Part shown: positions 14,083 to 14,985 of the stretch, in pieces
How positions within the stretch are numbered: position 1 is the first letter of the stretch
Layout: each line of letters starts with the position of its first letter
Source of the DNA: a virus
Reading direction: 5' to 3' (one strand)
Virus record (IMG/VR): IMGVR_UViG_3300032323_001952
Location: 1-23,381 of that record
Length of the DNA: 23,381 bases
Notes under the pieces: generated by a model
Database searches by the model: none
Told to the model about the DNA's origin: nothing
Seen by the model: the letters and a program-made list of their open reading frames with translations, nothing else
Translations under genes and position numbers: made by a program

Positions 14083-14094
14083 AGTAATCTCCGA

Positions 14095-14149
14095 CCCGGC
14101 GCCAACCAGGGTAGGTTAGTAAACGCTAACTGTAATTCCTAAGTCCGGG
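14095..14149 (+). ncRNA. Candidate structured leader RNA
   Basis: Between two genes, CCCGG (14095-14099) can pair with CCGGG (14145-14149), and inside it GTTAG (14115-14119) with CTAAC (14126-14130) around a 6-nt loop; TAG/CTA (14112-14114/14139-14141) extends the inner stem. CAACC (14103-14107) could pair with GGTTG (14155-14159), crossing the outer stem as a pseudoknot close to the next ribosome binding site. No known riboswitch class is recognised. It could be leader, attenuator or chance. Confidence 0.35.
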
Positions 14150-14179
14150 ACAATGGTTGACCAAACTAATTAAAGGCGT

Positions 14180-14530
14180 ATGAGAGAATACTTACTAGAT
14201 GAATCGGCTCAAAAGATCATAGAGCTACATAGAGACCACAAGTTCTACAATCTTGATCTCTCTGGACAGTTGGATCTTAGAACCTTGGACAACGATTTGG
14301 TTGACTTGGTAAGATACTTTGAAAGCCTTGAAGAAATTGACGACACATATAAAACCATGTGCCACAACTTTTTCTTCAAGATGTTTACCACCTGTAAACG
14401 TGATGACGCCATAGCCTATTTTAGGGTAGCAGTACATGATTATGGCCTGCATGTAGTGGCCGAAAGTACGGTGGATGAATTTGTGTACAAGTTACAACCG
14501 CGTGTAGACCGCTTGTGTGCTGGTGGTTGA
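14180..14530 (+). CDS. Hypothetical early-region protein
   Basis: The product has 116 residues and is acidic and largely helical. Segments include LVDLVRYFESLEEIDDTYK and MCHNFFFKMFTTCKRDDAIA, with LHVVAESTVDEFVYKLQPRV near the end. I do not recognise a family. The start ATG follows AAAGG with short spacing, after a 97-base leader with potential RNA structure and a lone TTGACC element lacking a -10 box. Its stop codon TGA (14528-14530) lies inside the -35 box of promoter cassette copy 2, so the 3' end of the gene is constrained by that promoter. Confidence 0.7.
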   Translation: MREYLLDESAQKIIELHRDHKFYNLDLSGQLDLRTLDNDLVDLVRYFESLEEIDDTYKTMCHNFFFKMFTTCKRDDAIAYFRVAVHDYGLHVVAESTVDEFVYKLQPRVDRLCAGG

Positions 14531-14555
14531 CCAATAAAGGCATTTCGGTTATAAT
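14527..14555 (+). promoter_or_regulatory. Strong sigma70-type promoter (cassette copy 2)
   Basis: TTGACC (14527-14532) and TATAAT (14550-14555) are separated by 17 bases. The upstream gene's stop codon is part of the -35 box. The predicted start near 14562 gives a leader of about 100 bases, which folds into the structure described at 14575-14647. Confidence 0.88.
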
Positions 14556-14574
14556 GTAGTTATAGTTAAGTTTA

Positions 14575-14647
14575 TGGGGTGGTGCTGGCAGACCCGGGTA
14601 ACACCTTAATGTAGAGTCAACTAAATGCAGGCCAACTCTACACCCCA
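14575..14647 (+). ncRNA. Structured 5' leader RNA with three-way junction
   Basis: The leader of the gene at 14666 shows three nested or adjacent helices. P1 is TGGGGTG (14575-14581) with CACCCCA (14641-14647). P2 is a hairpin in which GGTG (14581-14584) pairs with CACC (14602-14605) and CTGG with CCGG inside, leaving GTAA bulged. P3 is GTAGAGT (14611-14617) with ACTCTAC (14635-14641), 7 bp with a 17-nt loop. TGGC in P2 (14586-14589) could kiss GCCA in the P3 loop (14631-14634). The ribosome binding site AAAGGAG (14654-14660) follows at once. It looks like a cis-regulatory RNA; I recognise no known class. Confidence 0.6.
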
Positions 14648-14665
14648 CCCAACAAAGGAGCAGAT

Positions 14666-14932
14666 ATGTATTTAGGAATATTAGACAAATCAGAAGTAGA
14701 ACAAATCGTCCAGGCCCTGCGTGGCCCACAGTTTGACCGCAAACTGCACGGTGGCCTGTTTGACCGTGGATCGGCAGACAGCTACTATGGTCGTCCACGC
14801 GATCCACACTGGTATCCAGAGGGCAGTTACCACGGTGAAAAAATTGCAGAACTTAACTCTGCTGAAATCGAAGAGTATCACGCCGGATACGACCACAACG
14901 AGCAGTACGGCCACAAAAAAAGCTGGGATTGA
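14666..14932 (+). CDS. Conserved hypothetical phage protein behind the structured leader
   Basis: The product has 88 residues. The core GSADSYYGRPRDPHWYP followed by GSYHGEKIAEL and IEEYHAGYDHNEQYGHKKSW is a pattern I know from hypothetical proteins of many large phages; the function is unknown to me. It is rich in His, Tyr and Asp, so metal or nucleic-acid contact is possible but not shown. Expression should come from promoter cassette copy 2 through a folded leader that may regulate translation, since the ribosome binding site AAAGGAG starts 7 bases after helix P1. Its stop TGA (14930-14932) lies within the -35 box of cassette copy 3. Confidence 0.85.
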   Translation: MYLGILDKSEVEQIVQALRGPQFDRKLHGGLFDRGSADSYYGRPRDPHWYPEGSYHGEKIAELNSAEIEEYHAGYDHNEQYGHKKSWD

Positions 14933-14957
14933 CCAAAAAAGGCCCATTTGTTATAAT
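14929..14957 (+). promoter_or_regulatory. Strong sigma70-type promoter (cassette copy 3)
   Basis: TTGACC (14929-14934) and TATAAT (14952-14957) are separated by 17 bases, and again the upstream stop codon is in the -35 box. A short leader with AAAGGAG precedes the ATG at 14986. The following genes to about 17798 are closely coupled and may be one operon from this promoter. Confidence 0.88.
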
Positions 14958-14985
14958 AGTATTATAAACAATAAAGGAGCATAGC

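Follow-up and report, generated by a model that had tools for sequence, protein, structure and literature searches.

A viral record 23,381 bases long, analysed here in its full length and called the window below, carries a stretch of about 75 nt between a promoter and the start codon of a short ORF. The first-pass annotation read this stretch as a three-helix leader RNA, resembling an undescribed cis-regulatory RNA or riboswitch of the conserved gene that follows. The locus raises the question of whether the fold is real, and, if so, whether the RNA belongs to its neighbouring gene or has a function of its own. The window encodes ribonucleotide reductase subunits and an ATP-dependent DNA ligase, and the search of the phage collection with the region of the window detected no close relative.

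The element in the window

The element occupies positions 14575-14647, and its minimum-energy fold is the one described in the first-pass annotation, with the helices correctly placed (Table 1). Its location between the promoter (TTGACC-17-TATAAT) and the ribosome binding site and start codon was confirmed in the sequence. P3 is present with all seven of its proposed pairs (GUAGAGU/ACUCUAC), and P1 keeps six of seven (UGGGGU/ACCCCA), the seventh pair competing with P2 and P3. For P2, described as two blocks of four pairs, the outer block (GGUG/CACC) stands and covaries, while the inner CUGG/CCGG is not the conserved feature: what this stretch keeps across the family is a UGGC segment that matches L3, together with a hexamer complementary to itself, which in the window sits inside the octamer ACCCGGGU (14592-14599).

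Table 1. Positions of the RNA element, its parts and the adjoining expression signals in the window
Feature	Position	Strand	Description
Promoter	14527..14555	+	-35 TTGACC 14527-14532, 17-nt spacer, -10 TATAAT 14550-14555; read in sequence
P1 5' strand UGGGGU	14575..14580	+	pairs with 14642-14647
P2 5' strand GGUG	14581..14584	+	pairs with 14602-14605; covaries
L2 segment UGGC	14586..14589	+	complementary to L3 GCCA 14631-14634
L2 self-complementary hexamer CCCGGG	14593..14598	+	proposed homodimer kissing loop
P2 3' strand CACC	14602..14605	+	pairs with 14581-14584
J2/3 UUAAU, conserved junction strand	14606..14610	+	UUAA or UUGA in every group (for many members partly demanded by the search pattern)
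P3 5' strand GUAGAGU	14611..14617	+	pairs with 14635-14641
L3	14618..14634	+	3' end is the conserved YGCRNGCCA; GCCA at 14631-14634
P3 3' strand ACUCUAC	14635..14641	+	pairs with 14611-14617
P1 3' strand ACCCCA	14642..14647	+	pairs with 14575-14580
AGGAG, ribosome binding site for the 88-aa ORF	14656..14660	+	9 nt after P1
88-aa ORF, function not assigned	14666..14932	+	ATG at 14666; neighbour of the RNA, no consistent link

The element folds no more stably than shuffled sequence (z -0.63, 57 of 200 shuffles as good), an outcome that the first-pass annotation would have held against the structure. With its flanks the value was z +1.03, and the relatives ranged from z +0.29 to -2.55; thermodynamic stability was consequently set aside as proof of structure, being uninformative in the window and in the relatives.

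No match to Rfam 15 was detected in the window at the gathering cut-off, nor over 14500-14720 at E up to 10, and a search at the element of six relatives (including L152, L158 and L163) gave nothing. A tRNA-like gene was rejected, as ARAGORN detects none in the window. A leader peptide or other coding sequence was likewise rejected, since every frame is broken by stops or frame-changing indels in some members. The 88-aa ORF gave zero matches in Pfam and PHROG.

Two other stretches of the window were noted. A second conserved and probably structured stretch, CCCGGCGCCAACCAGGGTAGGTTAGT...CCTAAGTCCGGG, lies at 14088-14153, just 5' of a TTGACC promoter box; its hairpin varies among the loci L001-L009 and L012, its flanks CCCGG/CCGGG are kept, and it precedes different genes. 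The next small ORF is preceded, at 14933-14985, by a further TTGACC...TATAAT promoter and its short leader. The promoter cassette is seemingly reused by the phage ahead of many small genes, in the window and also in L099.

A family of 31 viral records

The search started from the window, and a model (R1) built from six close sequences detected two distant members at E 2.7e-8 and 7.8e-7, values that are rough by the construction of the model. Patterns consisting mainly of loop bases added more records to group A and revealed a distinct group B (L152, L158, L163, L170, L180, L183, L186, L201). Group C (L375, L379, L385) was found with a second model, R2, applied to the relatives of a neighbouring VWA-like gene. 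The element is thus carried by 31 viral records, 20 in group A, eight in group B and three in group C, many of them metagenomic contigs that are possibly incomplete. In L375 and L385 P2 is directly preceded by an additional hairpin, capped by a GNRA-type tetraloop (GCUC-GAAA/GCAA-GAGU).

Two additional search patterns gave no new group. Named phages gave blastn matches at chance level only, and the three of them scanned with R2 gave no match. Among the more than 100 pattern matches listed for bacterial and archaeal genome contigs, where the P3 candidates were inspected, no recognisable member was seen. A description of the motif was not found in the literature searched, which was mostly without subscription papers. 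Judged by these searches the RNA family is undescribed, and the first-pass annotation was right to call it an undescribed structured RNA, given the lack of an Rfam 15 match together with the strong covariation reported below.

Covariation of the helices

The alignment of 17 group A sequences has standard pairs in 95.9% of its pair cells, and nine pairs are altered on both sides. Such changes number 33, where shuffles give 10.3 +/- 3.1, and the covariation score of 0.303 (shuffles 0.135 +/- 0.017) was reached by 0 of 500 shuffles. When the partners were slid, as a control, pairing fell to 32-50%. Both-sided changes were detected at all six core pairs of P3 and covariation at three pairs of P2, which occurs as GGUG/CACC, GGCG/CGCC, GGAUG/CAUCC, GGUUG/CAACC and GGCUG/CAGCC. 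The core GGG/CCC of P1 is retained across group A, and P1 is weak in group C.

With groups A, B and C together (24 distinct rows), both-sided changes were detected at 14 pairs and in 83 cells, against 27.2 +/- 5.3, in an alignment that was fitted to the model and is biased towards it. The stems of group B and of most of the distant group A members are independent evidence, because the search retrieved these sequences through their loop bases, without recourse to the stems. The absence of covariation, which the first-pass annotation had named as the other ground for giving up the structure, is clearly contradicted. On this comparative evidence the three-way-junction structure is shown to be real.

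The L2 hexamer and the probable contact of L2 with L3

The hexamer of the P2 loop occurs as CCUAGG, CCCGGG, ACUAGU and ACCGGU, and despite these changes all 17 group A rows keep it self-complementary. Two of its pairs change on both sides in group A, the outer pair and the adjacent central pair (UA to CG). None of 500 shuffles gave a covariation score as high, and slid positions never behave in this way. The switches between palindromes are few, in about three lineages for the centre and about two for the outer pair. Over all three groups the hexamer is self-complementary in 22 of 24 rows, a count that includes three rows read by eye; in two group C sequences the self-complementarity is limited to CCGG. 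The search patterns also permitted CCAG and CTGG, and both are absent from all true members and present in chance matches.

The two central bases of the hexamer are adjacent and unable to pair within one chain, so the constraint on them points to pairing between two copies. Symmetric kissing loops of OLE and GOLLD have been argued for likewise, from adjacent loop bases that switch between palindromes (PMC12286853). Symmetric intermolecular pairing through the L2 hexamer, giving a kissing homodimer, is accordingly well supported as a prediction from the aligned loops. As another reading of this stretch, an inner P2 hairpin, UGG/CYR, was considered as the conserved feature. It would account for the C-Y-R, but not for the missing best partner: the fully Watson-Crick CCA never occurs, even though the search pattern permitted it, the hexamer stays self-complementary, and the inner hairpin was rejected.

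The loops are further conserved as UGGCA, YRG and YGCRNGCCAA. Every one of the 24 sequences keeps UGGC of L2 complementary to GCCA of L3, the possible P2-P3 loop contact of the first-pass annotation, and both segments are near-invariant, with UGGU in group C. Covariation does not bear on this contact because the sequences hardly vary. From the complementarity we infer that L2 and L3 probably kiss within one molecule.

Genomic context and copy number

The RNA stands 5' of five unrelated genes, three of them with their own promoter; unrelated genes follow it in L099, L181, L143 and L375. The order promoter, RNA and ribosome binding site was detected in the window and in L083, L090, L092, L094, L099 and L181, and the promoter of the window itself recurs 5' of the RNA in the first five of these. 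Three members are operon leaders (L143, L375, L385). Ten members, behind three gene families, lie in 3' UTRs (L144, L129, L151, L154, L156, L162, L166, L173, L198, L206), where the model match begins 3-5 nt past the TAA stop, ahead of a terminator-like hairpin. L143 has the same TAA spacing behind a further gene, which gives eleven cases in four gene families. Group B (L152, L158, L170) is found in a non-coding hairpin array.

The TAA may be part of the element in the eleven members spaced in this way, or translation termination may affect folding. Ribosome footprints imply that a terminating ribosome would cover P1 at this stop spacing.

Two of these contexts have conserved surroundings. In L129, L144, L373, L378, L381, L386 and L390 the stop of the VWA-like gene is followed by a conserved AGTGCC.GGGG.GTGGC-TTTTTA-GCCACA.RCCCCGCTGCTA element, which occurs with or without the RNA and resembles a terminator or another structured RNA. 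In the non-coding stretch of L170 (1-700, - strand), L158 and L201, further long hairpins lie on either side of the group B RNA, among them two similar GAGAGAGAG...CTCTCTCTC units with a common AAAGCCATTAAAT core, and a CCCAGTAGTAAG...CTTACTACTGGG hairpin.

The 88-aa ORF of the window has 499 relatives in viral contigs, and among 80 fetched loci only four have the leader 5' of the relative (L004, L005, L006 and L012, which are the later, longer loci L083, L092, L094 and L090). In six other loci (L001, L002, L003, L007, L008, L009) a near-identical promoter runs to the ribosome binding site without the RNA. The record G010/L099 carries the same promoter and RNA ahead of an unrelated gene of 92 aa, and also encodes a relative of the 88-aa ORF, which is without the RNA.

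R2 gave one significant match in each of the 22 positive records searched whole, which reach 278 kb, and one in each of two group C records; R1 likewise found a single copy in other records. With R2, no element was detected in large relatives of 320-344 kb, and many large relatives are without the RNA. Its absence from so many of them argues against an essential role.

Discussion

We suggest, with some confidence, that the element is an accessory phage RNA of about 75 nt that forms homodimers, is present in single copy, is made from its own promoter or within a 3' UTR, and probably acts in trans. That it defines a new class of small phage RNA, a homodimer on a movable, once-per-genome cassette beside unrelated genes and acting in trans in infection, is a broader claim that we make more tentatively. 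The trans-acting homodimer is the best reading because the RNA is single-copy and accessory, has conserved loops and has no fixed gene neighbour.

According to this model, the carriers would be large environmental tailed phages, and the RNA an accessory of theirs, transcribed from its own sigma-70-type promoter at the head of the mRNA for a small gene, as in the window, or within a 3' UTR. In its three-way junction P3 would stack on P1, with the UUAAU strand joining P2 and P3, and its large P2 and P3 loops would probably kiss intramolecularly over UGGC/GCCA. The hexamer exposed by the P2 loop would pair two copies into a symmetric homodimer, which may be bound by a phage or host protein and act in trans, not governing one adjacent gene. 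We infer the release from the mRNA, the action in trans, the target and the protein partner. The 3-5 nt spacing from the TAA and the proximity of the ribosome binding site would equally fit a role in cis.

The main rival is a gene-neutral cis element, a structured and possibly dimerising UTR cassette at the 5' or 3' ends of phage transcripts, which would shield or label the ends of the mRNA or guide its processing. Such an element would be expected beside unrelated genes, as found, and the RNA lies nearly always at a transcript boundary, either after a promoter or shortly past the TAA and before a terminator-like hairpin; the regular stop-codon spacing, otherwise unexplained, also speaks for it. 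We nevertheless consider it unlikely, as it would be strange for a general stabiliser to occur only once in genomes that reach 278 kb, the loop conservation goes beyond the needs of one, and group B lies inside a long non-coding array.

The riboswitch or cis-regulatory leader proposed in the first-pass annotation appears improbable. The RNA does lie between promoter and ribosome binding site in the window and six other records, and the proposed L2-L3 kissing recalls the purine riboswitch architecture. However, the downstream genes are not functionally related, and many members, in 3' UTRs or in the non-coding array, are not followed by a gene on their own transcript. The six close relatives of the 88-aa ORF that keep the promoter and lack the RNA also oppose a regulator of that gene, as does the single copy per genome; the three predicted helices leave the ribosome binding site free, and no Rfam riboswitch matched.

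A DNA-level feature, either a palindrome bound by a protein or a small mobile cassette of DNA, the fold being incidental, would suit the conserved palindrome and the precise way in which close relatives have or lack the element at one and the same promoter or stop codon, but it is disfavoured by covariation and seems very unlikely, for compensatory changes in P2 and P3 preserve the RNA pairs while the DNA sequence shifts, the palindrome keeps one fixed position in the P2 loop, and inverted ends were not found by eye.

To our knowledge, natural homo-oligomeric RNAs are few and mostly large. If the trans-acting homodimer is correct, this RNA, 75 nt long and with a self-complementary loop that covaries, would be a minimal and easily synthesised case, and the use of RNA dimers by phages would become directly testable by simple gels and structures. 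The model of the new family would be usable for phage genome annotation.

Comparison with known systems

The phi29 pRNA, in which 45AACC48 and 82GGUU85 pair between molecules (PMC7357161), is likewise a phage RNA present once, with a three-way junction and two loops complementary over four bases (here UGGC/GCCA). A packaging-type RNA of this kind, with the complementary loops pairing between molecules into a ring, is hardly probable for the present family: no Rfam pRNA model matched, the self-complementary hexamer favours closed dimers and not rings, and the absence of the RNA from many large relatives counts against an essential packaging role. Unlike pRNA, this RNA is shorter, has the extra hexamer and is accessory in large phages that are not phi29-like.

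Purine riboswitches share the three helices and the complementary L2 and L3, but the present RNA is without the ligand-binding junction sequence, an Rfam match or a fixed gene context. The manA (RF01745) and wcaG motifs are structured RNAs of T4-like phages, found through metagenomes (PMC2864571); they mostly belong to the 5' UTRs of metabolic genes, whereas the RNA described here has no Rfam match. In the HIV-1 DIS and other palindromic kissing loops two copies are joined through a self-complementary hexamer of a hairpin loop, as proposed here (PMC7357161), though virus and fold are unrelated; in our RNA the palindrome lies in one arm of the three-way junction.

GOLLD and ROOL are structured RNAs of phages and prophages with no assigned function that form homo-oligomers with kissing loops. 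The palindrome-switching signature of our hexamer is that of GOLLD L21a and OLE L9.3 (PMC12286853), so the symmetric kissing loop is shared; the large multi-helix architecture and a model match are not. GOLLD and ROOL have hundreds of nucleotides and many helices and form cages, while the RNA described here has about 75 nt and three helices, with no Rfam match.
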